DNA from: an uncultured bacterium
GTDB taxonomy: Bacteria > Myxococcota_A > Polyangia > Polyangiales > Houyiibacteriaceae
Direction of reading: 5' to 3'
Length of the DNA stretch: 37,292 bases
Assembly (NCBI GenBank): GCA_937998345.1
Contig: CALLDH010000211.1
Location: 1 to 37,292 of the forward strand
The notes below the pieces were generated by a model. That model was not told the DNA's origin and ran no database searches. It saw nothing but the letters and a program-made list of their open reading frames with translations. Both the position numbers and the translations under genes were made by a program. Positions 5,066 to 32,497 of the stretch are shown piece after piece (position 1 is the stretch's first letter; the number at the start of each line of letters is the position of its first letter).

Positions 5066-5068
5066 CAA

Positions 5069-7627: not shown

Positions 7628-9238
7628 ATGATAAAGGCGAAAATCAGAATGTCAATTCCGATTTCGATAGAGCGGCAATCCGAGTCGAACGAGCGACCGA
7701 CGCATATTCCATGCGTCGACCCGGCCACACGGGAGCCGCTTGGCGACGTGCCCATCGACTCCGCCGAGGATGTCGATGCCGCGGTCGCGCGCGCAAAGAT
7801 CGCGCAGAAGGAGTGGCGCACGACATCCTTCGAGGAGCGGCGCGAAGTCTTGCGTCGGCTGCTCGCATACACGGTCGACGAGAAGGACGAGATCTGTCTC
7901 ACGGTGCAGCGCGACTCTGGCAAGACACGCGAGAACGCGCTCATGGGGGAGATCTGGCCTACTTGCGAGAAGTTTCGGTGGATGATCAAAAATGGCGAGA
8001 AACATCTTCGCCCTGAGCGCGTCTCCGCCGGCTTGCTGATGCACAAGAAGGCGCGCCTCGAATACCACCCTCTCGGTGTCGTCGCCGCGATCATTCCGTG
8101 GAACTACCCTTTTCAGAACATCGTCAATCCGTTGATCCCAGCGCTGATGTCAGGCAACGCGATCGTGCTCAAACCGTCCGAATGGGTCGCATGGTCGAGC
8201 GCGAAATTCGTCGACTCGCTCCGTGAGATCGTTAGACAAGCCGGACACAACCCCGACCTCATCCAAGCGGTGCAGGGATATGGTCCCACCGGCGCCGCGC
8301 TTGCACGCTCCGCTGTCGACACGATTCTTTTCATAGGCTCGGTACGCAACGGGCGGCGCGTCGTCGAGGCCAGCGCAGAGCGGGTCGTCCCGGTGGTCAT
8401 GGAGCTCGGCGGTAAGGACGCTTTCATCGTTTGCGACGATGCAGATCTCGAGCAGGCGGTTCATGCCTCGCTCGCCGGTTGCTACATCAATTGCGGGCAA
8501 AACTGCGTCGCCTCCGAGCGAATTCTCGTGTACGACTCCGTCTACGACAGCTTCGAGAAGCGGGCCACAGAGCTCGTTGACGGGTTCCGGCAGGGCAATA
8601 GCCGTGAGGGCGTGGTCGATGTCGGCGCAATTGTCACCCCCTTGCAGCTCGACGTCATCGAGAAAGCGGTTGACGGCGCGGTCGCTCAAGGCGCCAGACT
8701 CGTGGCCGGCGGCAAGCGGACGCTCACCGACAAGGGCGACTACTTCGAACCCACCATCTTGGCCGATGTCACACCCGAGATGGACATCGCGCAGGAGGAG
8801 GTCTTCGGGCCGGTGATGCTTCTCATTCGAGTGCGCGACGATGCGAACGCAGTCGAGGTCGCGAACGGCGTGTCCTACGGTCTGTCGTCCTCCGTTTTCT
8901 CGAAGGACCGCTCCCGCGCCCGGAAGATCGCATCGGAACTCGAAGCCGGCATGAGCGCGATCAACGAGTTCGCCGGCATCACGTACATGGCGCAAGACCT
9001 GACATTCGGCGGCGTCAAAGCCTCAGGTTACGGGCGCATGAACGGACGCGAGGGCCTGCGCTCGATGTGCAACATCAAGGCGGTGATCGACGACCGTGTT
9101 CCGATGAACCAAGCCAACCGCGTTTTCCCGGTGGCTGACAAGGACTATGGCGTCTTTAGCGGCGTAATCGAGCTCATCTACGGGAGAGGCCTTGCGCAAC
9201 GATGGCGCGGCTTCCTGAGGCTCTTGGGCCGAAAGTAG
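7628..9238 (+). CDS. NAD(P)-dependent aldehyde dehydrogenase with C-terminal extension
   Basis: The protein has 536 residues and is a clear ALDH superfamily member: PWNYP (Asn159), the FIGSVRNGR cofactor loop, MELGGK (Glu259) and the catalytic GQNC (Cys293). It would oxidise an aldehyde to the acid. About 40 residues follow the usual ALDH end, including a basic, amphipathic tail (AQRWRGFLRLLGRK) that might associate with membrane. The start is uncertain: ATG 7628 or ATG 7649, the latter inside the operator palindrome; neither has a strong ribosome site. It overlaps the following GMC gene. In context it may oxidise sterol side-chain or alcohol-derived aldehydes made by its neighbour; the substrate is not shown by the sequence. 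Confidence 0.9.
   Translation: MIKAKIRMSIPISIERQSESNERPTHIPCVDPATREPLGDVPIDSAEDVDAAVARAKIAQKEWRTTSFEERREVLRRLLAYTVDEKDEICLTVQRDSGKTRENALMGEIWPTCEKFRWMIKNGEKHLRPERVSAGLLMHKKARLEYHPLGVVAAIIPWNYPFQNIVNPLIPALMSGNAIVLKPSEWVAWSSAKFVDSLREIVRQAGHNPDLIQAVQGYGPTGAALARSAVDTILFIGSVRNGRRVVEASAERVVPVVMELGGKDAFIVCDDADLEQAVHASLAGCYINCGQNCVASERILVYDSVYDSFEKRATELVDGFRQGNSREGVVDVGAIVTPLQLDVIEKAVDGAVAQGARLVAGGKRTLTDKGDYFEPTILADVTPEMDIAQEEVFGPVMLLIRVRDDANAVEVANGVSYGLSSSVFSKDRSRARKIASELEAGMSAINEFAGITYMAQDLTFGGVKASGYGRMNGREGLRSMCNIKAVIDDRVPMNQANRVFPVADKDYGVFSGVIELIYGRGLAQRWRGFLRLLGRK
7642..7663. promoter_or_regulatory. Operator-like palindrome between tetR and the ALDH gene
   Basis: The 22-base site reads AATC-N-GAAT-N4-ATTC-N-GATT, with all 16 arm positions symmetric. 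This is the size and form of a TetR-family operator. It overlaps the second possible ALDH start (ATG at 7649) and lies just upstream of tetR. A wider CGGAAT...ATTCCG repeat (7624-7629 and 7655-7660) brackets it. Binding here would block transcription or initiation of the ALDH and could also repress tetR. Confidence 0.6.
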
Positions 9239-10836
9239 TGATTAAGGGGTACGACTATATCGTGGTCGGCGGAGGCTCGGCCGGATGCATCGTGGCCGCG
9301 GGCCTGGCCAGTGACCCTAGCAACCGCGTGCTGCTACTCGAAGCCGGGCCGGCTGCTGAAGAGCACCCGGAAACCTTGATCGCAAAGGACTACAAAGAGG
9401 CCTTCATCAACGATGCCGTGATGGGTGAGCGCTTCTCCGTGCCGCAGGCGCACTCGGCCAATCAGCGGACCTTCGCCGGCACCGGCACGGTTATGGGTGG
9501 CAGCGGCTCGGTGAACGCCATGGTCTATACGCGCGGGTCGCGCGAGGACTACGACGAGTGGCCGGATGGCTGGGGCTGGGACGACAACGAACCCGACTTC
9601 GAAGCGATCGAGAAGATGCTGCGGCCAAACCGACGCCCCGCGACAAGATGGACCGAAGCCTGCATCGCATCGGCCCTGGAGCACGGTTTCACCCTGAGAG
9701 AAGATCTGAACGACGGCAACATGAGCAACGCTATCGGCTACGAGTGGATGTCGTACGAAGGCGAGGCTCGGCGAAGTTCATACGTGGCGTTCATCAAGGA
9801 TGCCGGCGAGCGCGCGAACCTCACCGTGCTCACCGGCGCGCGCGCCCATCGTGTCGTGTTCACTCCGGAGAAGCGCGCACGAGCGGTCGAGTTCGAGCAT
9901 GCCGGCGCACTCGAGCGTGCGGCCGCCGCGAAGGAGGTCATCCTATGCGCCGGCGCGCTCGAAACCCCCAAGCTGCTCATGCTCTCTGGCGTGGGCCCGA
10001 GCGAGCACCTTCGAGCATTCGACATCCCGGTAGTCGCCGACCGCCCCTCAATCGGCGATCGACTCCACGACCATCCGAACGTGCCGGTGTTTTTCAAGGC
10101 GCGGAACGACATCGATTGCTTCTATCCCCAGCTCTACAGCTTCTTCCGCACGAACGCGGACAGCGATCTGCCGGCCTCGCAAAGCGACACTTGCTACACG
10201 TACTGGCCCGCCCCTTCGGCGATGCGGCACATGATGCAACGCATGCTGCCGCCCATGGTGATCCCACACGCGCTCTACGGCCCGCGGTCGCGCCAGATGG
10301 TGCGCAGCATGGTCGCCGCGGCTTTCAAGATCGGCGCCCTGCGGCGATTCACCGACCACATGTTCGGCATCATCTTGATCCTCGGAAAGCCGAAGAGCCG
10401 CGGGACCCTTCGCTTGCAGTCGACCGACGTGAACCGGCAGGCCTTGATCGACCCGGCCTATTACTCGGATCCAGAGGATATGGAAACGATGATCAAAGGC
10501 GTGAGGATCGCCCGAGCGATCGGCGGCTCGAGCGGTCTTTCGGAATGGGGCGCCAAGGAGCTCATGCCCGGCGGGCGCGTGAAGAGTGACGAATCCATCG
10601 CGAAATACGTCCGGAAGAACACGATCACGACCTATCACTTCGCTGGCAGCTGCAGCATGGGAACGGGCGAAGCGTACGCCGTGGACCCCGAGCTTCGCCT
10701 GCGAGGTGTGACTGGCCTGCGGATCGCGGACGCCTCCACGATCCCTTGGACTCCAGTCTCGGCCCTCAACGCCCCGAGCATGCTGATCGGGTATCGCGCC
10801 GCAAAGCTCATCCGAAGTGACGCTACCTACAAGTAG
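9238..10836 (+). CDS. GMC-family FAD oxidoreductase (alcohol/sterol oxidase or dehydrogenase)
   Basis: From the GTG at 9238, which overlaps the ALDH stop as TAGTG, the protein has 532 residues; an in-frame ATG at 9202 is also possible. It has the FAD motif VGGGSAGC, the second GMC signature around GTGTVMGGSGSVN, and C-terminal HFAGSCSMG (active-site His near 467) with SALNAPS supplying Asn in place of the second His. GMC enzymes oxidise alcohols, including choline, long-chain alcohols and 3-hydroxysterols. Translational coupling to the ALDH suggests an alcohol-to-aldehyde-to-acid sequence. A Met-rich insert around residues 335-375 might form a membrane or lipid-contact patch. The substrate is unknown. 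Confidence 0.88.
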   Translation: MIKGYDYIVVGGGSAGCIVAAGLASDPSNRVLLLEAGPAAEEHPETLIAKDYKEAFINDAVMGERFSVPQAHSANQRTFAGTGTVMGGSGSVNAMVYTRGSREDYDEWPDGWGWDDNEPDFEAIEKMLRPNRRPATRWTEACIASALEHGFTLREDLNDGNMSNAIGYEWMSYEGEARRSSYVAFIKDAGERANLTVLTGARAHRVVFTPEKRARAVEFEHAGALERAAAAKEVILCAGALETPKLLMLSGVGPSEHLRAFDIPVVADRPSIGDRLHDHPNVPVFFKARNDIDCFYPQLYSFFRTNADSDLPASQSDTCYTYWPAPSAMRHMMQRMLPPMVIPHALYGPRSRQMVRSMVAAAFKIGALRRFTDHMFGIILILGKPKSRGTLRLQSTDVNRQALIDPAYYSDPEDMETMIKGVRIARAIGGSSGLSEWGAKELMPGGRVKSDESIAKYVRKNTITTYHFAGSCSMGTGEAYAVDPELRLRGVTGLRIADASTIPWTPVSALNAPSMLIGYRAAKLIRSDATYK

Positions 10837-11969: not shown

Positions 11970-12000
11970 CCCTTCGAAAAAGGGGACAGTCCCCTTTTTC
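11966..12000. repeat. Palindromic intergenic repeat, copy 1 (terminator-like)
   Basis: The arms AAAAAGGGGAC (11977-11987) and GTCCCCTTTTT (11989-11999) flank one base. The preceding TTAACCCTTCG is identical to that of copy 2 at 19916. The repeat carries the TAA stop of the DctP-like gene, and its right end overlaps the TGA of the convergent hydrolase. The A-run, GC stem and T-run make it a likely terminator in both directions. Confidence 0.8.
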
Positions 12001-12835
12001 ACCCTAGGTCGTTGGCGAGGAATTTTAGGGTTAGCTCGTTGAAGAGTTTGGCGTACTCGACCATGACCCAGTGGCCGCAGCTCGCGATAAGCATCGTACG
12101 GGAGTTAGCGCAGCGGGTGGCGATTTTGGATGCGCCACTCGACGGGCAGAACTTGTCGTTTGCACCCCAGAAGCAGAGCACCGGGCACTGGATCTCGGAG
12201 AGCCGTTCTTCCTGGTTGGCAACTCGGATGCGGGCGATGTTGTCTTTGTGCTGGGTCATGGCGACCTGATATCGCTCTTCAATGACCTCGTCGGTGATCT
12301 TGGTCTCGTCGTGCAGTTGGAGCCTGAAGACCTTTCGCATTGTCTCTTTGCTGATGCCTTCCTTGTAGAGGACGCGAATCATCGCTTTGATGCCCTCCAT
12401 CTCCATGTAGGTCTCTCGCGCCTCGAGGCCTCCGGGGGCCATCAAGACGAGCTTCTCCACGAGGTCCGGGTAGTTGAGGGCCATCGCGATCGCGACCGCT
12501 CCGCCCTGTGAGTTCCCCACCACGGTCGCTCGATCCACGCCAAGCGTGTCGAGGAGCGCCTTGTATTGAGCGGCCACATCGTCGAGGCTGAACGCGCCCT
12601 CTTCGGGCTTGGTCGAATAGCCGTAGCCCATCGTGTCGGGCACGATCGTCCGGTAGCCATGCTCGGCGAGGAACGGGTAGTTCCCCTTGAAGTTGCTCCA
12701 ACCGCTCGCCCCGGGGCCACTGCCATGCACGAATAGGACGACGCCGCGATCGCCACCGCCTGCCTCGTGGAAGTGCATCGTGATGCCACCGCCGACATCG
12801 GCGTATTTTCCTTCGGGAACTGCTTCTACGACCAT
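11999..12835 (-). CDS. Alpha/beta hydrolase of the meta-cleavage-product type (BphD/HsaD-like)
   Basis: The protein has 278 residues. The oxyanion segment HGSGPGASGWSNF and the nucleophile elbow GNSQGG (Ser109) match C-C bond hydrolases BphD and HsaD. The triad is completed by Asp227 (WGANDK) and His255 (CGHWV). These enzymes hydrolyse the ring-fission product made by extradiol dioxygenases, and such a dioxygenase lies immediately upstream on the same strand. GAGG precedes the ATG by eight bases. A palindrome with the KstR-type pattern lies 17 bases upstream of the start. The substrate could be a steroid secosteroid product or another aromatic; the sequence alone does not decide. Confidence 0.85.
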   Translation of the reverse strand: MVVEAVPEGKYADVGGGITMHFHEAGGGDRGVVLFVHGSGPGASGWSNFKGNYPFLAEHGYRTIVPDTMGYGYSTKPEEGAFSLDDVAAQYKALLDTLGVDRATVVGNSQGGAVAIAMALNYPDLVEKLVLMAPGGLEARETYMEMEGIKAMIRVLYKEGISKETMRKVFRLQLHDETKITDEVIEERYQVAMTQHKDNIARIRVANQEERLSEIQCPVLCFWGANDKFCPSSGASKIATRCANSRTMLIASCGHWVMVEYAKLFNELTLKFLANDLG

Positions 12836-12896: not shown

Positions 12897-13817
12897 TCAG
12901 CCCTTCTTGTCGCGTGATTCCTTGGCGCGGCGGTACGCTTTGGTGAGGAGCTGTGGCGGATGGTGCCCCCACTCGCTCACCTTGCCGTGGGTCGTGCTCT
13001 CCCAGCCTTCACCGATCTCGATGGCGCCCGAGCCGAACTCAAAGTGGAATCCGGATGGCGTGTACCCGTAGAACGAAAACATCTTGTCGTTCGGATGACG
13101 CCCAAGTGTTTGGTGGACCATACCGCCGGAAAAGAGAAACCGATCGTAGCACAACCCGACTTCATCCATGGACTTGGCTTGCACCATGAAGTGGTGAATC
13201 CGTTTGAGCTGCCCTCCCCCAAAGGCCAGCGAATGGTGTCGCGCGTTGGCGTGCATGAAGGTGACGTCGATCTTGTGTCCGAAGTACTCGCACCGGATGT
13301 AGTCGCTCAATCTCAACCCGAACATCGACGCGTAGAACGCTTCGTGCTCATCCTGATCCTTCGCCGCGACGACGACGTGCCCAAACCCCTGCTCGCCAGC
13401 CACGAAGCCCGATCGGACAACGTCCGAGGCGAATGGCTCATCGGTCTTCTTGGGGCCGTAATAAATCTCGTTTGGGTTGCCTGCTGGATCGTCGACGCGA
13501 ATCAGTGCCTCCACGTTTCGGCGTGCTGCTTCGTCTGCCGTGCCCTGCGTGACTTCGTGCCCGGCTCCCGCGAAGCGTCGTGCAAACGCTTCGAGCTCAG
13601 CGGGCCCTTCGACCTCCCAACCGATTGCGGCGAGGTCGTCAGCGGGCCCGCGATCGATGAAAAAGCGCTGCTGATAGCCGTCCATTCGCAGTGAAAAGCC
13701 CGTGTCTCCCCGTGAATCGACCACCGCTAGGCCGAGAATCTTGGTCCCGAAACGCTCCCATGCCGCGAGGTCGCTCACCTCGAAAACCAAGTATCCCAAC
13801 TGCTTCACCGAAGTCAT
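12897..13817 (-). CDS. VOC-family extradiol ring-cleavage dioxygenase (BphC/HsaC-like)
   Basis: From the ATG at 13817 (GGGAG upstream) the protein has 306 residues. It has the two-module vicinal-oxygen-chelate architecture of type I extradiol dioxygenases. Predicted Fe(II) ligands are His147 (FGHVVV), His209 (IHHFMV) and Glu260 (FHFEFG). His195, His241 and Tyr250 also fall at positions conserved in BphC. The enzyme opens a catechol ring next to the two hydroxyls; HsaC does this to the steroid A ring. The next gene downstream is the matching hydrolase. With all active-site residues present, catalytic competence is likely, but biphenyl-type, steroid and other catechol substrates cannot be told apart here. 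Confidence 0.87.
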   Translation of the reverse strand: MTSVKQLGYLVFEVSDLAAWERFGTKILGLAVVDSRGDTGFSLRMDGYQQRFFIDRGPADDLAAIGWEVEGPAELEAFARRFAGAGHEVTQGTADEAARRNVEALIRVDDPAGNPNEIYYGPKKTDEPFASDVVRSGFVAGEQGFGHVVVAAKDQDEHEAFYASMFGLRLSDYIRCEYFGHKIDVTFMHANARHHSLAFGGGQLKRIHHFMVQAKSMDEVGLCYDRFLFSGGMVHQTLGRHPNDKMFSFYGYTPSGFHFEFGSGAIEIGEGWESTTHGKVSEWGHHPPQLLTKAYRRAKESRDKKG

Positions 13818-13873
13818 TTGCTGCGCTCCCGGGCGGATCATAGTACGGAGGCCGCATCTGGCTACGGAGAAAG

Positions 13874-14578
13874 TTGATGGAATCCACTACACAGCCGCGA
13901 GGCCTCACGATCCCGACGGCGGCAGTCGTCGGAGCCGTTGTCCTCATTGGCACCGTGTTTCACACCTGGCTGCACCAGCGCGTTCACGGTGTCTACAACC
14001 TGACACAGATCGGCTTGGCATTCTTCTTGGTGATCAACGTAATGATCGCCTGGTGGGAGATCGCGCTCTTCTTCTGCCAAGACCAGATTCACGCTGAGTA
14101 CGAAGCAACCAAGGAAGCGTACCGCGGGCGAGAGCTCACTCGCGTTGCCGAGATCTTCATGAGACCGGTCCCTTTACTCAAGGTGCTCGCGCCCTGCCAA
14201 TGGACCGAAATTTGGTCAGGCTACTCGCTATTCGATCCCGGCTATTCAGACCGCCGTTCGTTTGGTTACAACATCGACGTCGGAAACGGTTTCACGACAC
14301 TCGTCCCCGCGTTGATTTTCGCGTTTGGAATGACGTTCGAGTTGATGCCAGCCCGCGTCCTCGGAATCATCGGCGTCATCATCTTCTGGCAGATGTTCTA
14401 CGGAACCGCTGTTTACTTCTTTCAGTTCTTCAACAACGGCCGCCACCATGGACACTCGGCCAGAGACTTGCTGCTTTTCGTCGGCATCAGCAACTCCATG
14501 TGGTTCGTCTTCCCAGTCTGGGGGTTGTACGCGAGCATCCAGATGATCCTCGACGGCTCGTACGGCATCTTCCTCTAG
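13874..14578 (+). CDS. Polytopic membrane protein resembling emopamil-binding protein (EXPERA; sterol isomerase-like)
   Basis: The protein has 234 residues with about five TM helices and GGAGAAAG before its ATG. The C-terminal half resembles EBP, the sterol delta8-delta7 isomerase: WQMFYGTAVYFF (171-182) lines up with the Q-x-Y-G-x-x-x-Y-F helix, and SNSMWFVFP (205-213) with the N-x-x-W-x-x-x-P helix. WWEIALFF (59-66) supplies a membrane Glu as in the EBP E-G-W-F segment, and W-T-E (109-111) resembles its W-K-E loop. The match is distant and was made by eye. It is divergent from the dioxygenase and converges on the FAD enzyme with a shared CTAG stop overlap. The sterol context makes the isomerase idea attractive but unproven. 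Confidence 0.5.
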   Translation: MMESTTQPRGLTIPTAAVVGAVVLIGTVFHTWLHQRVHGVYNLTQIGLAFFLVINVMIAWWEIALFFCQDQIHAEYEATKEAYRGRELTRVAEIFMRPVPLLKVLAPCQWTEIWSGYSLFDPGYSDRRSFGYNIDVGNGFTTLVPALIFAFGMTFELMPARVLGIIGVIIFWQMFYGTAVYFFQFFNNGRHHGHSARDLLLFVGISNSMWFVFPVWGLYASIQMILDGSYGIFL

Positions 14579-15954
14579 AGCGGCTGGCGGGTCCCTGCTT
14601 TCAGCATCATCCGTTGCATCTGGTTGAAGTCAGCGACGGCGTTGGGGTTGTCTCGCGAGAACGGATATGGAGCTCCGATCGAGTGGGCGGCAACTAGCCC
14701 CGACATGAACGACAGGTCGTGGCCTCCCTCGGGAGTCGTGAAGGTGCCACAGTAATGGATACCGTCTTTCCCCTGCAGGAAGCGCATCATCGACATGATG
14801 AGGAGGTTCCGTAGCGACATCGTGTGCGTCGGATGGGGTAGCTCGATGCGTTTCTGAACCTGGCCGATCGCCTTCTTCGAATTGAAGGTTACCAGCATCG
14901 GTACGCCTTTGTCCTTGAGGCTCGGGTTCTGCGCCGAGATCACGAAGGTGCACTCGAGCGCACCCACCTCATCGATCTCGGAGTACGTGTTGAAGTCCGA
15001 AAGAATTCGCTGGCGATGCTTCTCCGGAAGGATGCTGGTGTCGGAGTGCACCACGAATCTCGCGAACGTCGGATCGACATCGTCGACATACTGCGCCTTG
15101 CTGAAGAGGAGCCTCTGCAACCAGGTCGGAGAGTCGAGCGCGTTCAGCACCGAGGTGGCGTCGCAGGCAAAAACGACCTTGTCCGCTTCGTACATCCGTC
15201 CGTGTGCGTCTCCAATCACGAAGCGCCCGTTGCGACGTTTGACGCTCGTGATCTCGTGGCCCGTGTGCACCTTGTCTGCGAATTGCGCGGTCATCCGATC
15301 GAATACCTGACGCGGCGGCCCTTGCCAGGTGCCCATCTGGGTGGGCTCCTCGAGCGGCACGATGCTTTCGAGCAACGGTAGGATCACCGCAGGGACGCCG
15401 CGCATCGAGGTCGTGATGAAGCTGGCGCAATGAATGGGAACGAAGATCGTGTCCCAGAAGGCGTTCGAGATCCCGAACAGCCTCGCCAGCCAGTAGAGCG
15501 GAATGAGATTCATCGGATTGAAATACGAAAAGTGGTACATCGAGTCGTGCTTGTTCTTCGGCAAGAAGATCGCGTTCACCTTGGTGACGAAGGCAACCAG
15601 CTTCTTCCAGCGCCTGAACTCGCGGGCGAAGCGCTTTTGTACCGCTGTCTGACCATCTTGGCAGAAGTGCCCCTCCGGGGTCTGCACGAAGTACGAGATT
15701 GGCAGCGGCTCGATTCCGACGCCGAGCTCGCCCAGTAGCAACTCGTAGTTGTGGTAATACATCTGCGGCCAAGCAACGACGAGCAGGGGGGACTCCGCGT
15801 GGCCGCCCTCGACGGTCCAGCGAAATGTCTTTGCGTTTCCGCCGAGAGCTGGGCCCCTCTCGAAAAGCTCGACTTCGTAACCAGCGCGGTGAAGTGACCA
15901 AGCCGCTCCGACGCCTGCAATGCCACCTCCGATGACGCCTACCTTCTCAGTCAT
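14575..15954 (-). CDS. FAD-dependent oxidoreductase (amine oxidase / phytoene-desaturase-like fold)
   Basis: The protein has 459 residues. The ATG at 15954 has GGGGG six bases upstream and places the dinucleotide motif GVIGGGIAGVGAAW right at the N-terminus; the long upstream extension was rejected. The E-L-F-E-R-G-P-A-L-G-G-N-A segment and the C-terminal FAD motif (HYCGTFTTPEGGHDLSFMSG) are typical of NAD(P)/FAD flavoproteins of the amine-oxidase superfamily, including one linked to cyclopropane fatty-acid loci. It is the last gene of the CYP51 operon. The reaction is unknown; a sterol desaturase, reductase or dehydrogenase step would fit the neighbours. No signal peptide is visible. Confidence 0.8.
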   Translation of the reverse strand: MTEKVGVIGGGIAGVGAAWSLHRAGYEVELFERGPALGGNAKTFRWTVEGGHAESPLLVVAWPQMYYHNYELLLGELGVGIEPLPISYFVQTPEGHFCQDGQTAVQKRFAREFRRWKKLVAFVTKVNAIFLPKNKHDSMYHFSYFNPMNLIPLYWLARLFGISNAFWDTIFVPIHCASFITTSMRGVPAVILPLLESIVPLEEPTQMGTWQGPPRQVFDRMTAQFADKVHTGHEITSVKRRNGRFVIGDAHGRMYEADKVVFACDATSVLNALDSPTWLQRLLFSKAQYVDDVDPTFARFVVHSDTSILPEKHRQRILSDFNTYSEIDEVGALECTFVISAQNPSLKDKGVPMLVTFNSKKAIGQVQKRIELPHPTHTMSLRNLLIMSMMRFLQGKDGIHYCGTFTTPEGGHDLSFMSGLVAAHSIGAPYPFSRDNPNAVADFNQMQRMMLKAGTRQPL

Positions 15955-15977
15955 GCATATCCCCCGGGAGCCGTTCG

Positions 15978-17222
15978 CTAAGAGTGCTTCGGCACCAAAT
16001 CGACAATCGGTCCATGCCGCAGTGTGTGGCAGACACCCTTGTAAATGCCGAGCGACTCGTAGACCGCCGCGGTCATCATCACCGTTCGTGTCTGCCCGAC
16101 GATCGACATCGGGAAACCACTGTGCACGAGGCCGAACGAAAGCTTCAGCTCGGGGTTGGCCCATCCTCCAGCGCCGCCCAAACCGAAATGCCCGAAGGCT
16201 TCGGGAACATCCATCAAGAATGCGTCGCTACGGTGGTATCCGAGCTTCCAGTGAAGCGGATAGAACGTGACTTTGTCCGCGCGCTTCGTCTGAACTTCAG
16301 CCGATTTCCGGACGTTCTCTTCCGAAACCAAACGCACGCCGTCGAGCTCACCGCCCATGGAAAGGGCGGCATACATCTTCGCGAGCGAACGTGCCGTCGC
16401 GACCCCGTTCATCGCAGGCAGGCACGCCTTCCAGAACGCGGGGTGTGAGTAGAGCTCCTTGGCGTGACCAAGCGTGAGGCCGCGGCTCCAGAGGTCCCGC
16501 ATCTGCTTCGGTCGAACCCAAAAGGGGACGCGGTAGTCGGTGGACAGTGGCTTGGCGCCATCTCGCTGGAGCTCGGGCAGCCCTTTGAAATCGGGGATGC
16601 GGTGCATCTGCGTGTCGGCGTTACCGATGTACAAGCCGTCGAGCTTCAGGGGCTCGACGATTCGCTGTTCGACGAACTCGGGGACCGTCAAGCCCGATAC
16701 GCGGTGAATCAGCTCCCCGACTAGCCAGCCAAACGTGACGGCCTGGTAGGCGTTGGCGGTGCCTGGATGGAAGTCCGGCTCCGTCTTGGCGATACGGGAC
16801 ACGATCAGATCCCAGTCGAGGATGTCGGTGAGCTTGTCCACGAGGTGCGCGACCTTGTGGAGGCCCGCCTGATGAGAGAGCAACTGTCGAACTGTGATCT
16901 GCTCTTTGCCGTTGCAGCCGAACTCGGGCCAGTAGTCGGCAACGTGCGCCTCGTAGTCGATCAGGCCATCGGTCGCGAGCATATGGATTGCGGTCGCAGC
17001 GATCCCCTTGGTGCCCGAGTAACAAATGGACATGGTGTCTTGCTGCCAGGGCGTGCCGTCTTTGCGAGCCGGGCCGGCCCAAATGTCGACGACGGGTTTG
17101 CCTTCCAAGAACACCGCCGCAGCCGCACCACCGCCGTAGTAGTTGATTTGCTTGAGCAGTTGCTCTGCAACCGGTTCGAAGCGCGGCTGGTACACGCCCT
17201 TGATTTCGATCTTGTCAGACAT
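15978..17222 (-). CDS. Serine hydrolase of the class C beta-lactamase / EstB esterase family
   Basis: The protein has 414 residues. The S69-G-T-K72 tetrad is the nucleophile motif of this family, with a downstream Tyr (NAYQAV, about 159) in the second motif and GLGGAGG near residue 365 in place of the KTG box. No signal peptide is seen, so it is probably cytoplasmic, unlike true beta-lactamases. Family members are esterases, transesterases (LovD) and peptidases. It lies between the cycloisomerase-like and FAD genes with short gaps (about 30 and 23 bases). Steryl-ester hydrolysis or acyl transfer to a sterol is a reasonable idea from context only. Confidence 0.85.
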   Translation of the reverse strand: MSDKIEIKGVYQPRFEPVAEQLLKQINYYGGGAAAAVFLEGKPVVDIWAGPARKDGTPWQQDTMSICYSGTKGIAATAIHMLATDGLIDYEAHVADYWPEFGCNGKEQITVRQLLSHQAGLHKVAHLVDKLTDILDWDLIVSRIAKTEPDFHPGTANAYQAVTFGWLVGELIHRVSGLTVPEFVEQRIVEPLKLDGLYIGNADTQMHRIPDFKGLPELQRDGAKPLSTDYRVPFWVRPKQMRDLWSRGLTLGHAKELYSHPAFWKACLPAMNGVATARSLAKMYAALSMGGELDGVRLVSEENVRKSAEVQTKRADKVTFYPLHWKLGYHRSDAFLMDVPEAFGHFGLGGAGGWANPELKLSFGLVHSGFPMSIVGQTRTVMMTAAVYESLGIYKGVCHTLRHGPIVDLVPKHS

Positions 17223-17253: not shown

Positions 17254-18066
17254 TCATGTCAGGGGCCCGAAGATCGCCGCTGCGAAATCCAACAGGAACA
17301 TCATGATCATGCTCGCGGTGCACGCTGCGGCCGCCGTGATCGGCAAGCTCCAATTCGCGTCGCGCTCTTCGTCGAGACGATAGAAGATCGGGAAGCTCGC
17401 GACGAAGTAGAGCGAGTAGAAGAGCGAACCGTAGGTGAGCATGCGCTCCATGTCCCTGTAGTAGAACTGGCTCTCGATCCAGGGGTTCGCCATCGCCTTG
17501 GTTTCCATCCAGGCCCAGAAGTACGCGACGATCAGCACCAGAACTGGCCAGAGCATTCTGCCAATCGGAATTCGGGAGGTGCGGATTCGCCGGAGCACGA
17601 TGACCGCGGTCGTATGATAGGTGACGAAGTAGGCCTGCGTGAGCAGGTACATGATGAGTGGGACACGCTGCTCCCCCGACCCGACCAGCGTCGAGTCGAG
17701 ATTCAGCTCGATCATCGGGTAGTCGTAGACCATCCCGAGAATGTCGAAGAAGTACTCGCTGCCAAAGTAGTTCGCGGCGAAGTTGAAGATCGCGATGTAG
17801 AGGTTCGCTTTGAACCAGTACGTTTGATACCAGCGGCGGCCGATGGCCCTCTCATCGCGGATCTGGGTGGGGACCAACACCAATGGAAGTGCCGCGGCCA
17901 ACCCGATCGCCAGGAACCCCCACTCGCCTATCCGAGCGGCGACACCGAGCCCCATGACGAGCCCCATCATTGTCATCCAGACCGGCGAGTAGGCGAGAAA
18001 GAACTTCTCGCCCCACGCTTTGCTCGGGTTCTCGGAGAACCAGCGCGGAGTGCGGTCGGTCGGCAT
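17254..18066 (-). CDS. Cycloeucalenol cycloisomerase-like membrane protein (plant CPI1 type)
   Basis: From the ATG at 18066 the protein has 270 residues (plant CPI1 is about 280) and many TM helices. Several plant CPI1 motifs are recognisable in order: ENPSKAWGEKFFL (12-24), YWFKANLY (83-90), NYF (99-101), FVTYH (147-151), LRRIR (158-162), METKAMAN (187-194), and FYSLYFVASFPIFYRLDE (216-233). In plants CPI1 opens the 9,19-cyclopropane ring of cycloeucalenol to give obtusifoliol, the substrate of CYP51. Here it lies two genes downstream of CYP51 in the same operon, which supports the same role. The ORF could extend to 18165, but that part overlaps the preceding small gene. The alignment is from memory, not computed. 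Confidence 0.85.
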   Translation of the reverse strand: MPTDRTPRWFSENPSKAWGEKFFLAYSPVWMTMMGLVMGLGVAARIGEWGFLAIGLAAALPLVLVPTQIRDERAIGRRWYQTYWFKANLYIAIFNFAANYFGSEYFFDILGMVYDYPMIELNLDSTLVGSGEQRVPLIMYLLTQAYFVTYHTTAVIVLRRIRTSRIPIGRMLWPVLVLIVAYFWAWMETKAMANPWIESQFYYRDMERMLTYGSLFYSLYFVASFPIFYRLDEERDANWSLPITAAAACTASMIMMFLLDFAAAIFGPLT

Positions 18067-18071
18067 TGTGC

Positions 18072-18296
18072 TCAGCCAAAGAGAGCAATACGGATCATCG
18101 CTCGTAGGTTCCTGAGCTTCTCGAGCCCGCGGGCCCAGAACTCTTCTTTCGGACCGACGTTCCAACGGTACACGGCGTCATCGGTGTAGTGCGCCCCGAG
18201 GTACGTGCTCCAATCACCTTCCCGCTCAGCATTACGGTTGGCTTCGAGCCCCCGCTCCATCATTTCTTCGAGCTCTTCACGCGGAAAGGCGGGCAT
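18072..18296 (-). CDS. Short NTF2/SnoaL-like protein, apparently C-terminally truncated
   Basis: The ORF has 74 residues with a strong ribosome site (GAGGAG about six bases before ATG 18296). It overlaps the end of CYP51 by 20 bases and ends five bases before the cycloisomerase start. The segment YTDDAVYRWNVGPKEEF resembles the first half of SnoaL-like NTF2-fold proteins, in which about 80-100 more residues normally follow. The end (RAMIRIALFG) departs from the family, so this looks like a remnant cut short where the CPI-like gene begins, or a very small stand-alone protein. Some NTF2-fold proteins are steroid isomerases, but the catalytic half is missing here. Confidence 0.55.
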   Translation of the reverse strand: MPAFPREELEEMMERGLEANRNAEREGDWSTYLGAHYTDDAVYRWNVGPKEEFWARGLEKLRNLRAMIRIALFG

Positions 18297-19674
18297 CGGT
18301 TGCTCCTCGTCGGCGGTAGCGAATACGAATAGGCGGCTTTGGTCCTAGAACCAAGCCCTGGAAGTCCGTCTCGACGGGGTCACCGGCCAACTCGAAGTCG
18401 TAGCGATTGAGAAGGACGGCCATGATCGTCTTGATCTGTAAGATCGCGAACGCATTGCCCATGCACTTGTGTCGCCCTCCGCCGAAAGCGATGTAGGCGA
18501 ACGGGCGCTTGTCTTCTTCGCGGCGCGGGCCGTAGCGGTCCGGGTCGAACTCGAGCGGGTTCTCGAAGACGTCCGGGTCGCGATGCGCGACCATCGGCGA
18601 AACCGCCACCCAGTCGCCCTTCTTGACCTGGTATCCGAGAATTTCGCAGTCTTCGAGGGCCGCCCGGAGCAGGATGAACAGCGGTGGGTGGATGCGTAGC
18701 GCCTCTTTCACAGCGCCCTCGGTCTTCTCGAGGTCGCGCAGGGACTCAAACGAGTAGTCCTCCGCGTCGGCGTAGCGCGCGCGGATCTCGTTGCGAACTT
18801 CCCCGAGAAATCGCGGGTGTTGCAGTAGCTCGATCAAGGTCCACGCGGTCGTGACGGAGCTGGTGTGATGCCCGGCAAACATTGCCGCTACCAGCATCCC
18901 GCTGATCTCGTGGTCGCTGAGCTTGCTGCCGTCGGAGTACTCAGCGTCCATGAGCGTCTGAAGGAAATCTTCGCCGTGGTACCCGGACCGCTTTCGCTTC
19001 TCGACGATCTCCGCAACCATGTCACCGAGACGCGCGCGCGCCCTATCCCGCCGACGAAACGCCGGAATCGGCAGGTACGGATGAATGTAGCCCCAGGCGA
19101 CGATCCCGCGCTCCAGGTCGTAGTAAACCTTGGAGAACTCCTCGTTCATCTCGTTGCGAAACTCTCTGCCGAGCAAGCAGCTGCTCGAAGTGTAGTTCGT
19201 GAGCATCCCGAAGAACTCGCCCGCCTCGATTTCTCCCTCGTCGCCCCAATCTGCGATCGTTTCCTGCGTCTCCCGCGCGACGATCTCCGTGTACGTCCGC
19301 ATGCGGTTGTTGCGAAGCGCCGGGTAGAGCATGTGCATTTGCTCTGCCATCTTTGCGGGCTCGGCGCCGTACGCGACGCCCTCGCCGAACACGGGAACCA
19401 TCATCTTGTACGCCGCGTTGGGGCTGAGCACTTCATCAGGTTGCCGAAACAAGGCCTCATGCGCCTCGGGGCCCGTAAAGAGAATCATGTCCTTGCCGAA
19501 CAGCTTGAACCGCCCGACGCGACCGCACTCGTCGTATGTCTTCTGGAGCAAGCCAATCGTGTCCTTCACGAATGCCATCGTGTGACCGATCAAGGGAAGC
19601 CCACCCTTGAGCTTGGGAGGCCTTTCGAGGCTACGCGTAGCGAGAGGGGTTGCGGTGGTTTGTGCTGGTGCCAT
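18277..19674 (-). CDS. cyp51: Cytochrome P450 CYP51, sterol 14-alpha-demethylase
   Basis: From the ATG at 19674 (a TTG two codons earlier is also in frame) the protein has 465 residues. CYP51 signatures are clear: the B'-helix segment YKMMVPVFGEGVAY (from Tyr89), the I-helix FAGHHTSS (266-273), the E-x-x-R EALR (324-327) followed by HPPL, and the haem loop FGGGRHKCMG with Cys404. The enzyme removes the 14-alpha methyl of sterols in three O2-dependent steps. No N-terminal membrane helix is evident. The B' and I helices look closer to trypanosomatid CYP51 than expected, and the position that sets C-4 methyl preference is Met91. A [3Fe-4S]-type ferredoxin gene is divergent from it; the CPI-like gene is downstream. 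Confidence 0.93.
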   Translation of the reverse strand: MAPAQTTATPLATRSLERPPKLKGGLPLIGHTMAFVKDTIGLLQKTYDECGRVGRFKLFGKDMILFTGPEAHEALFRQPDEVLSPNAAYKMMVPVFGEGVAYGAEPAKMAEQMHMLYPALRNNRMRTYTEIVARETQETIADWGDEGEIEAGEFFGMLTNYTSSSCLLGREFRNEMNEEFSKVYYDLERGIVAWGYIHPYLPIPAFRRRDRARARLGDMVAEIVEKRKRSGYHGEDFLQTLMDAEYSDGSKLSDHEISGMLVAAMFAGHHTSSVTTAWTLIELLQHPRFLGEVRNEIRARYADAEDYSFESLRDLEKTEGAVKEALRIHPPLFILLRAALEDCEILGYQVKKGDWVAVSPMVAHRDPDVFENPLEFDPDRYGPRREEDKRPFAYIAFGGGRHKCMGNAFAILQIKTIMAVLLNRYDFELAGDPVETDFQGLVLGPKPPIRIRYRRRGATDARLSA

Positions 19675-19721
19675 CGTCAACTTTCGTATATCAGGCTTTC
19701 GTCGATCTCTAACCAGGGAAA

Positions 19722-19919
19722 ATGCCGATGAGAATCAAAGTGGATTTCGATCTCTGCCAGGGACACGCCAACTGCATGGGGGAGGTGCCCGAGGTCTTCC
19801 AGGTGGACGACAAAGGGTTCCTCAACATCCTGCAGGAAGAACCGCCAGAAGAACTTCGCGAGCAGGTCGAGCTCGCCGTGAAGTACTGCCCGACCAACGC
19901 GATTACTCTCGAAGATTAA
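19722..19919 (+). CDS. P450-type [3Fe-4S] ferredoxin
   Basis: The protein has 65 residues with C12-x2-H15-x2-C18 (CQGHANC) and Cys56-Pro (KYCPTNAI). This is the three-cysteine pattern of small ferredoxins that serve bacterial P450s, as beside CYP51 in mycobacteria. It is very acidic, as expected for docking to a reductase and P450. It starts about 47 bases from the CYP51 start on the opposite strand, so one short region must hold both promoters. GGGA lies before the ATG at 19722; the ATG at 19728 is nearly as good. Its TAA stop lies in the second copy of the palindromic repeat. Confidence 0.92.
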   Translation: MPMRIKVDFDLCQGHANCMGEVPEVFQVDDKGFLNILQEEPPEELREQVELAVKYCPTNAITLED

Positions 19920-26089: not shown

Positions 26090-27781
26090 TTGTGGGTTAA
26101 ATCTTTACTGGCCGGATGGCTACCGATTTGCTGCACCTTGCTGCTCCTCGGTTGCAATGGGACGATCGGGGACGCCAACCCGAATGGAGAACTGGACACA
26201 CCCGCACCTCGGTGCGGCCGGTCGGTCTGCGGCGCAACCGGCGAGCTGGCAGCGGGGAGCGCGTTTCCACGACTCACCCACGCCCAATGGGAGAACAGCG
26301 TCCGCGACCTGCTCCGCCTGGCAGCAACGCCCAATCTGTCGGGTAGTTTCGAGCCAGACACGCGGCTCAGCTTTTTCGACAACAACGTCCGCGCGCTTCG
26401 CGTGAGCAGTGACCTCTGGGGCAACTACCAGGCAGCAGCAGAGACGCTGGCTGAGGCTGCGACGGCAGACGCTACGGTGCTCGCTGGTCTGCTGCCAGGC
26501 GAGCTACCGAGCGACACCGTCGAACGCGGGCGTGCAATTGCTCGCGATCTCGGCCGTCGCGCCTATCGACGGCCGCTCACCAACGAGGAGCTCGACGCCC
26601 ATGGGGCGCTCTTCGAACAGGGCGCCATGTACTTTCCCGACATGGATCCTCTCGATGGCGGCGTCCGGATGCTGCTCGAGGCGTTTCTGCAGTCGCCCCA
26701 CTTCGTCTACCGAGTTGAGCTCGGGGACAGCCAAAACGGTGACATCGTGCAACTCGGCGGCTTCGAGATCGCCTCGCGGCTCTCGTACATGATCTGGAAC
26801 ACGATGCCCGACGACGAGCTGCTCGACGCGGTGGAAGGCAACGAGTTGAACACCGCAGAGCAAATCGCCGCGCAAGCTGCACGCCTGCTCGACGACCCGC
26901 GCGGCCAGGCGATGCTCGAGCGTTTCCACGCGCAGCTCTTCAACTGGGATCTCTATGGGGACTTAAGCAAGGACCCAATGGAGTTCCCGCTCTCCTACGG
27001 CGGCATGGGCCACGACATGTACGAAGAAGCTCGCGTCTTCGTCGAACGCGTGGTCCTCGAGGAGGACGGCAATTTGGCCGAGCTTCTTACCGCGCCCTAT
27101 ACGTTCGTGAACGCCGATCTTGCCGCTATTTACGGTCTCGAAGGCGCTTTCGATGACACCTTCTCGCGAGCGAGCTTCAGCTCCGTCGAGCAGCCCGAGC
27201 GCGGTGGCCTGCTTACGCAGCTTGGGTTCCTGGCGTCGCACGGCGGGCTCACGGCTTCGGTCCGCCGGGGTGTCTTCATCAATCACCGCGTTCTTTGTAC
27301 CGAGCTTCCGCCACCGCCGGACGCGCTGCCACCGATTCCGGCTGACGACGGCATGACGATGACCTCTCGCGAGCGGATCGAGATGCACACTGGCCCTGGC
27401 ACTTGCGGTGCAAGCTGTCACGGTACTTTCATCAACCCGGTGGGCTTCGCATTCGAGGGCTTCGACGGGCTAGGGCAGCACCGCACTGAAGAGTTCGGGA
27501 TGCCGGTCGACACGTCGGCGACCTTCGAGTTTTCAGACGGTCCAGTTGCCTTCGACGGAGCGGAGCAGTTCAACGACGCAATCGCGGCGCGCATCGAAAC
27601 TCACGACTGTTACACCAAGCACTGGGTCGAGTACGCGTTCGGGCGAGACACCGCCGGATCGGACCTCGATCTGATTCAAGACTTGGGCGATGCCTCCCTC
27701 GACGGGCTTTCGGTCAGGGCGTTGATCCTCCGGCTCGTGCAGAGCGAGGAGTTCAGGGTACGCAATGGGGGTGGCTCATGA
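26090..27781 (+). CDS. DUF1592-type secreted lipoprotein with CX3CH motif (module 1)
   Basis: The protein has 563 residues. A TAG in frame just upstream leaves TTG 26090 as the start that keeps the signal sequence, which ends in a lipobox LLLGC. It shows the series found in planctomycete and myxobacterial proteins: DUF1587-like (LTHAQWENSVRDLL), DUF1595-like (RAYRRPLTNEEL), DUF1592 (SRLSYMIWNTMPDDEL), DUF1588 (RGGLLTQLGFLASHG to NPVGFAFEGFDGLG) and DUF1585-like at the end. The usual haem-type CxxCH is here C439-GAS-C443-H444, one residue longer. The function is unknown; an outer-envelope redox role is suggested by the motif. It is translationally coupled (ATGA) to a DUF1552 gene. Confidence 0.88.
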   Translation: MWVKSLLAGWLPICCTLLLLGCNGTIGDANPNGELDTPAPRCGRSVCGATGELAAGSAFPRLTHAQWENSVRDLLRLAATPNLSGSFEPDTRLSFFDNNVRALRVSSDLWGNYQAAAETLAEAATADATVLAGLLPGELPSDTVERGRAIARDLGRRAYRRPLTNEELDAHGALFEQGAMYFPDMDPLDGGVRMLLEAFLQSPHFVYRVELGDSQNGDIVQLGGFEIASRLSYMIWNTMPDDELLDAVEGNELNTAEQIAAQAARLLDDPRGQAMLERFHAQLFNWDLYGDLSKDPMEFPLSYGGMGHDMYEEARVFVERVVLEEDGNLAELLTAPYTFVNADLAAIYGLEGAFDDTFSRASFSSVEQPERGGLLTQLGFLASHGGLTASVRRGVFINHRVLCTELPPPPDALPPIPADDGMTMTSRERIEMHTGPGTCGASCHGTFINPVGFAFEGFDGLGQHRTEEFGMPVDTSATFEFSDGPVAFDGAEQFNDAIAARIETHDCYTKHWVEYAFGRDTAGSDLDLIQDLGDASLDGLSVRALILRLVQSEEFRVRNGGGS

Positions 27782-29199
27782 GCGCTTTCGGTAGGCGGCC
27801 ATTCAGGCGCCGCCTCTTTCTCACCGGCGCCGCAGGTGTGACCGTCGGTCTGCCATTCTTGGAAACGTTTGCGACGAAGATGGCGCGTGCGGCGAGCCCC
27901 GACGACCCGGGCTTCGTCGTGTTCATGCGCCAAGGCAACGGCTGTTCTCAGGCGCTGTCCTTCAGTAACCCGGCTGAGCCGGAGATGTTCTGGCCTCGAA
28001 ACCTGGGAGCCCTCACCGCCGCATCGATGGCTGCCGACAGCGATCGCGCAACCAGCGAGCTGAGCGCACACGCCGACAAGCTACTGATGGTGCGGGGCGT
28101 CCGCGGGGCCTTCTCGATCTCGGGCTGTGGTCACGCCCGAGGCGCGCTCCAGGCGCTAACAGCCCAGCCAACCGGTGATTCGGAGGCGACCAACAACTCG
28201 CTGGCACTCGGCGAGTCGCTCGACAACCGGATTGCGCGTGAGCTCAATCCAGAAGGCCGTGGTCCACTCACACTGGCCGCGATGCGCCCATACAACTTCC
28301 TCGACAGCGTTCTATCTTACCGTGGGCCGAACGACCGCCGGGGCGCGCAGACCAACCCGAAGGTCGCCTTCGACGACATCATGGGGCTGGTCAATCTGGA
28401 CGAGTCCTCGGCCCAGTCAATCGCCGCGCGCCGCCAAAGCGTCAACGACCTGGTGCGCGACCAGATGCAGACGCTGTTGAATCGAAGCGACCTGAGCTCG
28501 GACGACAGGAACCGACTGGACTTGCACTTCTCCGCGATTCGAGATCTCGAGATCCGGCTTGCAGAGTGCTCGCCACTCGATGAACCCACCGTCAGCGCGA
28601 TCAACGCCATCAATGGAGATCATCAGAACGGAGACCGAGTCGTCGAAGTCGCCGAGCTGCACATCGAAGTTATCGCGCTGGCGCTTTCCTGCGGCTACAC
28701 GCAGGCAGCGACCCTTCAGATCGGCAACGGCAACGACGGCACGCGCTACCGGTGGCAGGGCGAGGAGTTCCCCTCCTATCACTGGATCTCCCACAGGATC
28801 TTCGCCGACGGCTCGGACGGTGATCCGATTCCGGATGCGCAGGCCAAGCACAACGCGGTGGATCGAATCCACGCTCGCCTTTTCGGGAGGCTGCTCGACC
28901 GTCTATCGGCCTACACGACGGAGACGGGAACCCTCCTCGACAAGGGCGTCTGCGCTTGGATCAACGACCTCTCGAACGGCCCGCCCCACTCGATCAACAA
29001 CCTTCCCTACGTGCTCGCGGGCAGTGCGGACGGGTTCTTACGAACCGGCGCATACGTCGACGCGGGGGACGTCCCTCACAACAAGCTCCTGAACACCCTC
29101 GCAACCGCGGTCGGCCTGCGAAAGACCAACGGCGATCCGGTCGACGATTTCGGCCATGCCAGCCTCGAAGGCGGTTTGGTCGATCCAATGATGACTTAG
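27778..29199 (+). CDS. DUF1552 protein, Tat-type signal (module 1)
   Basis: The protein has 473 residues. The N-terminus RRPFRRRLFLTGAAG is Arg-rich with an R-R-x-L-F-L pattern and a hydrophobic stretch, as in twin-arginine signals, suggesting export in folded form. The body follows DUF1552: an early FMRQGNGC strand, a SGCGHARG-like segment, regular helices with L-x-x-H-x-x-x-I-R-D-L-E, and a late LPYVLAGSADGFLRTG region. DUF1552 proteins share features with the DUF1501 / alkaline-phosphatase-like group but have no proven activity. The gene begins inside the stop of the DUF1592 gene, so the two products are probably made together and may interact. Confidence 0.87.
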   Translation: MSAFGRRPFRRRLFLTGAAGVTVGLPFLETFATKMARAASPDDPGFVVFMRQGNGCSQALSFSNPAEPEMFWPRNLGALTAASMAADSDRATSELSAHADKLLMVRGVRGAFSISGCGHARGALQALTAQPTGDSEATNNSLALGESLDNRIARELNPEGRGPLTLAAMRPYNFLDSVLSYRGPNDRRGAQTNPKVAFDDIMGLVNLDESSAQSIAARRQSVNDLVRDQMQTLLNRSDLSSDDRNRLDLHFSAIRDLEIRLAECSPLDEPTVSAINAINGDHQNGDRVVEVAELHIEVIALALSCGYTQAATLQIGNGNDGTRYRWQGEEFPSYHWISHRIFADGSDGDPIPDAQAKHNAVDRIHARLFGRLLDRLSAYTTETGTLLDKGVCAWINDLSNGPPHSINNLPYVLAGSADGFLRTGAYVDAGDVPHNKLLNTLATAVGLRKTNGDPVDDFGHASLEGGLVDPMMT

Positions 29200-29233
29200 C
29201 CGACCCGCGTGGCCGTGATAGACTGAAGGACCG

Positions 29234-29935
29234 ATGGTGGAACCGATGGGGATCTGCGAGAAGCACCAACTCCCGCTGGACGAAAATGGGGAATGTGAGC
29301 TGTGCCGCCTGAGCGACATGCCTTCGAAGTCCCCACCCGCCCGAAGCGCTTGGTGGGCTTTGATCATCCCTCTCGCGCTGGTGTTGGCGGGTATCGCTTG
29401 GACGCTTGCTTCATTCGAACCCGAGCCCGAACGTGCACCGCCCCGAGGCGTTCGAACGACCGCACCGCGACCGGTGATTCCAGAGCCGTCCGCAGAAGAA
29501 CCGCGCGCTCCCGAGCCCGAACCCGCTCCCGCTCCCGAGCGGCCGCCGCCGCCGGTCCCAGGCGACGACATTCCGGTTCCCGAGCCGACACCGGAGGGTG
29601 CGCAGCTCGATGCGACTCCGCCCGGGGAGGGAGACGCGACCGAGGCGCGCATCCCCGAATGGAAATGGAACCTCGCTCGTCGACGCGTCTCCATCACCAT
29701 GTACGCAACGCAATGGTGTGGGGTGTGCCGAAAGGCGCGAGAATACATGGAGACCCGCAGCATCGACTTCGTCGAGCTCGACACCGACGAAAGCTCAATC
29801 GCTGGGGACCGGCTTGGTGAGCTCAATCCGCGCAAAACGATCCCCACCTTCGAGATCGACGAGCAGGTGTACATCGGCTTCCGCGAGGACGCGTTCGAGG
29901 CGAAGATCAACCGGGCCGCCCGGAAACACCTCTAG
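29234..29935 (+). CDS. Zinc-ribbon, TM, Pro-rich linker, glutaredoxin-domain protein
   Basis: The protein has 233 residues. A small metal site is suggested by C8-x2-H11 and C21-x2-C24. A TM helix follows (about 41-58), then a 75-residue linker of Pro, Glu and Ala, and a glutaredoxin/thioredoxin-like domain with W-C162-G-V-C165 and the cis-Pro segment KTIPTFEID. It would place a dithiol redox domain in the periplasm or on the other face of the membrane from the zinc ribbon. It follows the DUF1552 gene by 35 bases with AAGGA before its ATG, so it may be part of that operon and act on its cysteines or haem-type motif. That link is inferred. Confidence 0.85.
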   Translation: MVEPMGICEKHQLPLDENGECELCRLSDMPSKSPPARSAWWALIIPLALVLAGIAWTLASFEPEPERAPPRGVRTTAPRPVIPEPSAEEPRAPEPEPAPAPERPPPPVPGDDIPVPEPTPEGAQLDATPPGEGDATEARIPEWKWNLARRRVSITMYATQWCGVCRKAREYMETRSIDFVELDTDESSIAGDRLGELNPRKTIPTFEIDEQVYIGFREDAFEAKINRAARKHL

Positions 29936-30052
29936 CGCTGCACTCTGGCACGGGGTTCGGTAGCGTCGCTCCGATGATCGAGTTCGTGAGAACGCCCGAG
30001 TCACGAGCTGATCATTACAGATCGCGGCTCTGTGTAAGCCGTGGCACCTTGC

Positions 30053-30080
30053 TTGCCTCGACACGGCTAATGCCGATAAT
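30053..30080 (+). promoter_or_regulatory. Predicted promoter of paralogue A
   Basis: TTGCCT (30053-30058) and GATAAT (30075-30080) are separated by 16 bases. The start codon follows only six bases after the -10, with no ribosome site, so the message is probably leaderless. The same arrangement occurs before the paralogue at 30687. Confidence 0.5.
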
Positions 30081-30086
30081 CACAGC

Positions 30087-30575
30087 ATGGGGGAAGCACT
30101 GAGGGTTAGCGGACCGCCGGTGGGGGTTGGTCTTGGATTCGACGTGTCGATGTGGCCGCTCGTGGTGATCACAATACCGCCAGTCACGACGCCAGACGAC
30201 ATCGAGTACATGCAGCGCTGCTATGAGCATGTCTTCGCGTCGCCCGTGCGCCACGCGCTGATCGTCGACACGACGTCGATTGTCAGGGTGCCGGATGCCA
30301 CATTGCGACGGCAGATGAAGGCCTTCGAAGACAGCCGGCGTCCGATCATTCGCCTGAAGAACATTGGCAGCGCGATCATCATCCAGAACACGGTCATCCG
30401 CGGCGCATACACGGCACTGCGCTGGATCTCGCCGCAGCCCGCGCCGAACAAAGCCTTCCCGACCGTGGAGGCCGCCGCCCGCTGGTGCGTGCAGGGGATT
30501 GAGGAAGACGGGCAGATCGTGCCAATCGCCGCGTACGCCCTCGCCGGACTCGCAGGCAACACCGCAGTCGGCTAG
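30087..30575 (+). CDS. Small protein of unknown function, paralogue A of a tandem pair
   Basis: The protein has 162 residues and no signal peptide or TM helix. It has an alternating pattern of strands and helices, with FDVSMWPLVVITIP near the start, HALIVDTTSIVRVPDATLRRQMKAFED in the middle, and GAYTALRWISPQPAPNKAF near the end. The pattern recalls SpoIIAA/STAS-like alpha-beta proteins that are common in myxobacteria as uncharacterised ORFs, but I do not recognise a named family. It is clearly homologous to the next gene along its whole length. The absence of a ribosome site at a start close to a predicted promoter suggests leaderless translation. Confidence 0.8.
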   Translation: MGEALRVSGPPVGVGLGFDVSMWPLVVITIPPVTTPDDIEYMQRCYEHVFASPVRHALIVDTTSIVRVPDATLRRQMKAFEDSRRPIIRLKNIGSAIIIQNTVIRGAYTALRWISPQPAPNKAFPTVEAAARWCVQGIEEDGQIVPIAAYALAGLAGNTAVG

Positions 30576-30649
30576 GCGGCTCGCCGCTCCGACACCAGTG
30601 CCTCCTGAGGCCTGGAATGGGACGCTTTATCCTGTTTGTGGCGAATTCG

Positions 30650-30677
30650 TTGCAGGCCGTTGGCTACGTTCGATAAC
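30650..30677 (+). promoter_or_regulatory. Predicted promoter of paralogue B
   Basis: TTGCAG (30650-30655) and GATAAC (30672-30677) are again 16 bases apart, and the ATG follows after nine bases without a ribosome site. The agreement in spacing and -10 sequence with paralogue A indicates that the promoter was duplicated with the gene or is under selection. Confidence 0.5.
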
Positions 30678-30686
30678 ATTTAATCA

Positions 30687-31172: not shown

Positions 31173-31178
31173 GAGCCG

Positions 31179-31439: not shown

Positions 31440-31442
31440 GCC

Positions 31443-32441: not shown

Positions 32442-32497
32442 GCGCAAGAGGCTAGCACCCCACCGGGGCGCGGGGGAAATCGCTTGGTGGACGCGGG

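Follow-up and report, generated by a model that had tools for sequence, protein, structure and literature searches.

Plants and certain protists are the known sources of cycloeucalenol cycloisomerase (CPI; CPI1 in plants, EC 5.5.1.9). Why would an uncultured member of the Myxococcota carry a homologue close to a sterol 14α-demethylase (CYP51) gene, and on whose sterols would the two enzymes act? We addressed this question on a stretch of DNA of 37,292 nucleotides, hereafter the window, together with the genome it belongs to and its relatives. No description of a bacterial CPI was found in the open-licence literature searched. The gene that raises the question is:

17254 to 18066, minus strand: CPI-family (cycloeucalenol cycloisomerase-like) membrane protein, 270 amino acids; assigned on similarity to AtCPI1, an AlphaFold2 model and conservation in the genus

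This open reading frame starts with an ATG and encodes a full-length homologue of plant CPI in which the motifs ENPSKAWGE, YWFKANLY and FPIFYRLDE are all present and in this order. BLASTP against AtCPI1 as the single target gave 35% identity across 268 amino acids with E=6e-52, the AtCPI1 sequence used being of uncertain letter-for-letter accuracy. The first-pass annotation had recognized the plant CPI motifs in this 270-residue protein, and the significant match to plant CPI1 bears it out. The nearest relatives of this AtCPI1 sequence are bacterial homologues other than that of the window (38-40%, L077/G043 and L078), so the sequence used is independent of the window protein. Profile searches of Pfam and NCBIfam returned no matching model for the window CPI. 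Its AlphaFold2 model is helical and confident (pLDDT 86.8); fold comparison with the PDB gave no match with E<0.001, and the top match of a second look, the mycobacterial Insig homologue MvINS, had a Z score of 6.4, which may be chance for helical bundles. EBP-type isomerases were absent among the matches listed, which is uninformative either way. In a maximum likelihood tree containing a single plant sequence and rooted at the midpoint, plant CPI and the window clade grouped together to the exclusion of divergent CPI-like proteins (support 96/93), the latter mostly from myxobacteria that bear an oxidosqualene cyclase (OSC). This topology suggests that plant CPI is placed inside the bacterial CPI family. 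A scan of viral contigs found no CPI relatives. In all likelihood the window protein is an isomerase of the CPI family that belongs to a sterol ring-stripping module.

The immediate neighbours of the CPI gene are:

15978 to 17222, minus strand: LipL-like serine esterase (beta-lactamase fold), the next gene of the operon; Pfam/NCBIfam
18072 to 18296, minus strand: remnant of an 8,14-Bsr-like NTF2-family sterol reductase, 74 amino acids; matches both ends of the L053 homologue
18277 to 19680, minus strand: CYP51 (sterol 14α-demethylase); best PDB matches all CYP51
19722 to 19919, plus strand, divergent from CYP51: small ferredoxin, 65 amino acids; cysteine pattern CxxxxxC...CP

CPI and CYP51 are in one predicted operon. 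As had been noted from the first inspection, the two genes are two positions apart. Both are on the minus strand with one short open reading frame between them (18072-18296, minus strand), and the LipL-like gene, whose start is at 17222, lies 31 nt past the end of CPI. Since CYP51-CPI synteny is present in nearly all sister species, the arrangement is not due to chance. A PDB search indicated that the window CYP51 is close over its full length to solved CYP51 proteins, the closest structure being Methylococcus capsulatus CYP51 (6mcw, E=8e-143); M. tuberculosis CYP51 (1e9x) matched with E=7e-114. Ferredoxin genes co-localise with CYP51 of the window type (PMC13277303), and by analogy the 65-residue ferredoxin is the probable redox partner of the window CYP51.

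The short open reading frame between CYP51 and CPI resembles the gene of the 8,14-sterol reductase (8,14-Bsr) recently described in Methylococcus together with the numbering of its catalytic residues (PMC13277303). The window Bsr is not intact: the N-terminal 57 and C-terminal 17 residues of the remnant align with an intact homologue of 199 residues in L053, and about 125 residues (about residues 58-182) are missing through an in-frame internal deletion. The remnant overlaps the end of CYP51 and its stop codon lies 5 nt ahead of the CPI ATG. Sister species have intact 199-residue NTF2-family copies at the same syntenic place, and the L053 homologue has Tyr37, Tyr43, Tyr78, Tyr80, Asp133 and Asp136 exactly at the published 8,14-Bsr positions.

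In L044 the Bsr gene carries another deletion and in L049 its frame is disrupted, so that decay of this gene seems to be under way in several species. The syntenic CYP51 proteins are themselves of two types, with 85-90% or about 67% identity to that of the window (L044, L049, L050, L053 and L055). Bsr usually follows CYP51 of the 67% type and is usually missing after the 85-90% type; the window CYP51 is of the 85-90% type, yet is accompanied by a Bsr remnant.

Outside the genus, CYP51 and CPI are linked in a minimum of five lineages (G022, G043/L077, L079, L081 and G167), none of which has an OSC, and in these 8,14-Bsr often lies beside the pair. In L081, a Pseudomonadales MAG, a 3β-HSD-type gene lies between CYP51 and CPI. 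G022 and G167 have divergent CPI-like proteins (29-31%). At L192 7775-10208 and L056 7138-9100, in genomes without OSC, CYP51 adjoins a divergent CPI-like protein (29-31%); such proteins possibly represent a second activity within the family. The recurring 8,14-Bsr/CYP51/CPI trio could also be read as the signature of a sterol double-bond isomerase (e.g. Δ8(14) or Δ8) that has the fold and chemistry of plant CPI in common, acting after CYP51 and 8,14-Bsr on lanosterol-type sterols. A degrader would profit from an isomerase that clears the 8(14) bond, and the more divergent members of the family are found in genomes with a lanosterol-type OSC. However, members of the window clade have the plant CPI motifs over their full length and group with the plant protein, and CPI is kept in the window and several relatives despite a broken or absent Bsr. 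We consider a double-bond isomerase unlikely.

A conserved gene cluster extends from CPI towards the beginning of the window:

4046 to 5068, minus strand: 3β-HSD/C4-decarboxylase, NSDHL-like; human NSDHL in the PDB (6jkg, E=4e-35), PF01073 207 bits
5069 to 5743, minus strand: fatty-acid-hydroxylase superfamily protein, sterol C4-methyl-oxidase (SMO)-like; PF04116 85.6 bits
5772 to 6935, minus strand: ferredoxin/flavin reductase, KshB or oxidase-reductase type; Pfam domains, synteny
7628 to 9238, plus strand: aldehyde dehydrogenase; Pfam, synteny
9202 to 10836, plus strand: GMC-family oxidoreductase; Pfam, synteny
11999 to 12835, minus strand: meta-cleavage-product hydrolase, HsaD-like; top NCBIfam model HsaD, 194 bits (cut-off 400)
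12897 to 13841, minus strand: extradiol dioxygenase, BphC/HsaC type; TIGR03213 298 bits and HsaC model 217 bits, both below cut-off
13874 to 14578, plus strand: protein of 234 amino acids without a Pfam or NCBIfam match, a genus-wide member of the cluster; synteny
14575 to 16164, minus strand: FAD-dependent oxidoreductase, amine-oxidase type; Pfam, true start probably near 15957

Synteny across about 19 species of uncultured Myxococcota gave the genus-wide order CYP51-(Bsr)-CPI...HsaC-HsaD...FdR-SMO-NSDHL, and the SMO-like gene adjoins the NSDHL-like gene throughout the genus. On the other side of the window (26090-36057) we observed two consecutive pairs of a DUF1592/1588/1585-type gene and a DUF1552 gene.

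Genes of steroid catabolism are not confined to this cluster. KshA_C Rieske oxygenases are present in all genomes of the genus, in 4-10 copies except for G010, which has only one. In the window genome the genes for a KshA (top PDB match KshA5, E=7.5e-65), an HsaA and an HsaC-like protein lie side by side; the profile scores of HsaA, HsaC and HsaD are all below the equivalog cut-offs (HsaA 424/450, HsaC 206-217/450 and HsaD 182-194/400 bits). The sister species G016 has a cluster with genes for an HsaA-like protein, an HsaD-like protein, 4-hydroxy-2-oxovalerate aldolase and acetaldehyde dehydrogenase. Amongst CPI-bearing Myxococcota, a strong KshA was found in 17 of the 19 genomes without OSC versus 4 of the 19 with OSC (Fisher p=5e-5, uncorrected for kinship), and at the genus level this split gave p=0.06. 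Two OSC-less CPI carriers, G043 and G306, lack a strong KshA, and the L079 genome has none at all. At L044 6186-7178, and likewise in several relatives, a gene for a KshA_C-type Rieske oxygenase lies opposite TetR-CYP51; it may encode an SdmA- or KshA-like partner and is not found at this place in the window. Attack on methylated sterols has a precedent in Mycobacterium, which converted lanosterol to C19 steroids according to a 1991 study as cited in PMC13277303; the title of that study, as given there, also includes cycloartenol and 24-methylenecycloartanol.

The same cluster might instead remodel exogenous sterols into membrane sterols with no degradation. Its modules are of a biosynthetic kind, in methanotrophs 8,14-Bsr and CYP51 take part in biosynthesis (PMC13277303) and some carriers of CPI-CYP51 are without KshA. 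The HsaC- and HsaD-like, aldehyde dehydrogenase and GMC genes inside the cluster and the several KshA and HsaA genes of the genus nevertheless argue against salvage without degradation, which we regard as improbable.

The origin of the substrate was then considered from the distribution of OSC. The window genome encodes a single OSC, plus a squalene epoxidase. Cycloartenol synthases have the active-site triad Tyr-His-Ile, and at the corresponding positions the OSC of the window genome has Gly/Ala-His-Val. OSCs of Polyangiaceae and Sandaracinaceae are mainly lanosterol synthases (PMC12004948). Within the genus, OSC was found in 5 of 19 genomes and CPI is kept in 17 of 19; squalene epoxidase accompanies OSC in four of the five (G000, G010, G011 and G016), and in G004 there is a lone match. 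Genome incompleteness was ruled out as the reason for the absence of OSC, as four genomes of about 100% completeness (G005, G012, G015 and G018) have no OSC match and retain both CPI and CYP51. We also screened 379 Myxococcota genomes, 41 of them with a CPI-family gene and 14 with a Tyr-His-Ile OSC, and no genome had both, a zero overlap that has P ~0.2 by chance and is not significant alone. These 14 uncultured Myxococcota with a cycloartenol-type OSC and no CPI homologue are L034 and L198-L212 except L208 and L210.

In plants the C4-methyl-oxidase and NSDHL-type steps come before CPI. A de novo route of this kind, in which the bacterium would make its own cycloartenol, remove one C4 methyl and open the ring with CPI before CYP51 acts, would fit the presence of SMO-like, NSDHL-like, CPI and CYP51 genes in one region of a genome with OSC and squalene epoxidase, but we rejected it as the main reading and hold it to be very unlikely given the residues of the OSC, the retention of CPI where most of the genus has no OSC, and the lack of co-occurrence of CPI with cycloartenol-type OSC described above. 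The first-pass annotation had proposed a bacterium following the plant logic from cycloartenol rather than lanosterol. Of this proposal, the CPI family and the positional link to CYP51 in several lineages stand, and the C4 genes of the cluster also agree with the plant order; the cycloartenol start is not supported, the only OSC of the genome being without the Tyr-His-Ile triad and 14 of 19 genus members without OSC. That most sister species keep the CPI/CYP51 set without a sterol-making OSC suggests that it is used on sterols of other organisms. As a counterpoint, the window genome with its OSC and squalene epoxidase may itself make lanosterol, in which case CYP51 and the C4 enzymes could be anabolic. 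The CPI substrate is more probably exogenous, and the evidence speaks for cyclopropyl and methylated sterols from outside, probably algal or plant, that are degraded or salvaged, more than for a plant-type route of the bacterium's own.

We consider it on balance probable that the window CPI is a 9β,19-cyclopropane ring opener in a module acting mainly on the sterols of other organisms. In the genus the substrates would be mainly foreign sterols from algae, plants and protists. The SMO-like oxidase and the NSDHL-like decarboxylase would remove C4 methyl groups, CPI would open the 9β,19-cyclopropane of 4-demethylated (4α-methyl) cyclopropyl sterols to give a Δ8 sterol, and CYP51 with the ferredoxin would remove the C14 methyl, to which relatives would add 8,14-Bsr. 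The stripped ring system would then enter the 9,10-seco pathway (KshA, HsaA, HsaC and HsaD) or be salvaged. Since the 9,19-cyclopropane occupies C9 and C19, it should prevent hydroxylation at C9, on which the 9,10-seco route depends, and this would be the reason for a degrader to keep CPI. More tentatively, bacterial CPI, CYP51, 8,14-Bsr and the C4-demethylation pair may form a unit that feeds the 9,10-seco route and is dedicated to algal and plant cyclopropyl or methylated sterols, with plant CPI within, and maybe derived from, the bacterial family.

The window CPI resembles plant CPI1 in length, in the order of its motifs, in sequence (35% identity from end to end) and in the adjacency of CYP51, which in plants is adjacency in the pathway. 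It differs in being bacterial, in its place in a predicted operon and in having relatives mostly in OSC-less genomes with steroid-degradation genes. With the 8,14-Bsr/CYP51/ferredoxin group of methanotrophs, Mycobacteriales and uncultured myxobacteria (PMC13277303) the locus has in common the CYP51 type, the nearby ferredoxin and, in relatives of the window, an NTF2 reductase gene carrying the published catalytic residues. In contrast, CPI, which is not mentioned in that paper, is added here, and the window Bsr has a large internal deletion. As in actinobacterial 9,10-seco catabolism, the window genome has KshA- and HsaA-like genes and the cluster has HsaC- and HsaD-like ones, but the HsaA-, HsaC- and HsaD-like proteins score below the equivalog cut-offs and the genes are linked to those for CYP51, CPI and C4 demethylation. 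Finally, the window genome shares OSC, squalene epoxidase and CYP51 with sterol-synthesizing Myxococcota (PMC12004948, PMC10202945), whereas most of its genus is without OSC and the sampled CPI carriers are without a cycloartenol-type OSC.

Bacterial transformation of cycloartenol-type sterols has been reported since 1991, going by a title cited in PMC13277303. If the bacterial CPI is indeed catabolic, it would provide a gene for the bacterial attack on such sterols. It would also provide a reason for the retention of CYP51 in bacteria without sterol synthesis, which is a standing puzzle in mycobacteria. If plant CPI does fall inside a bacterial family, this would bear on the origin of the plant sterol pathway.
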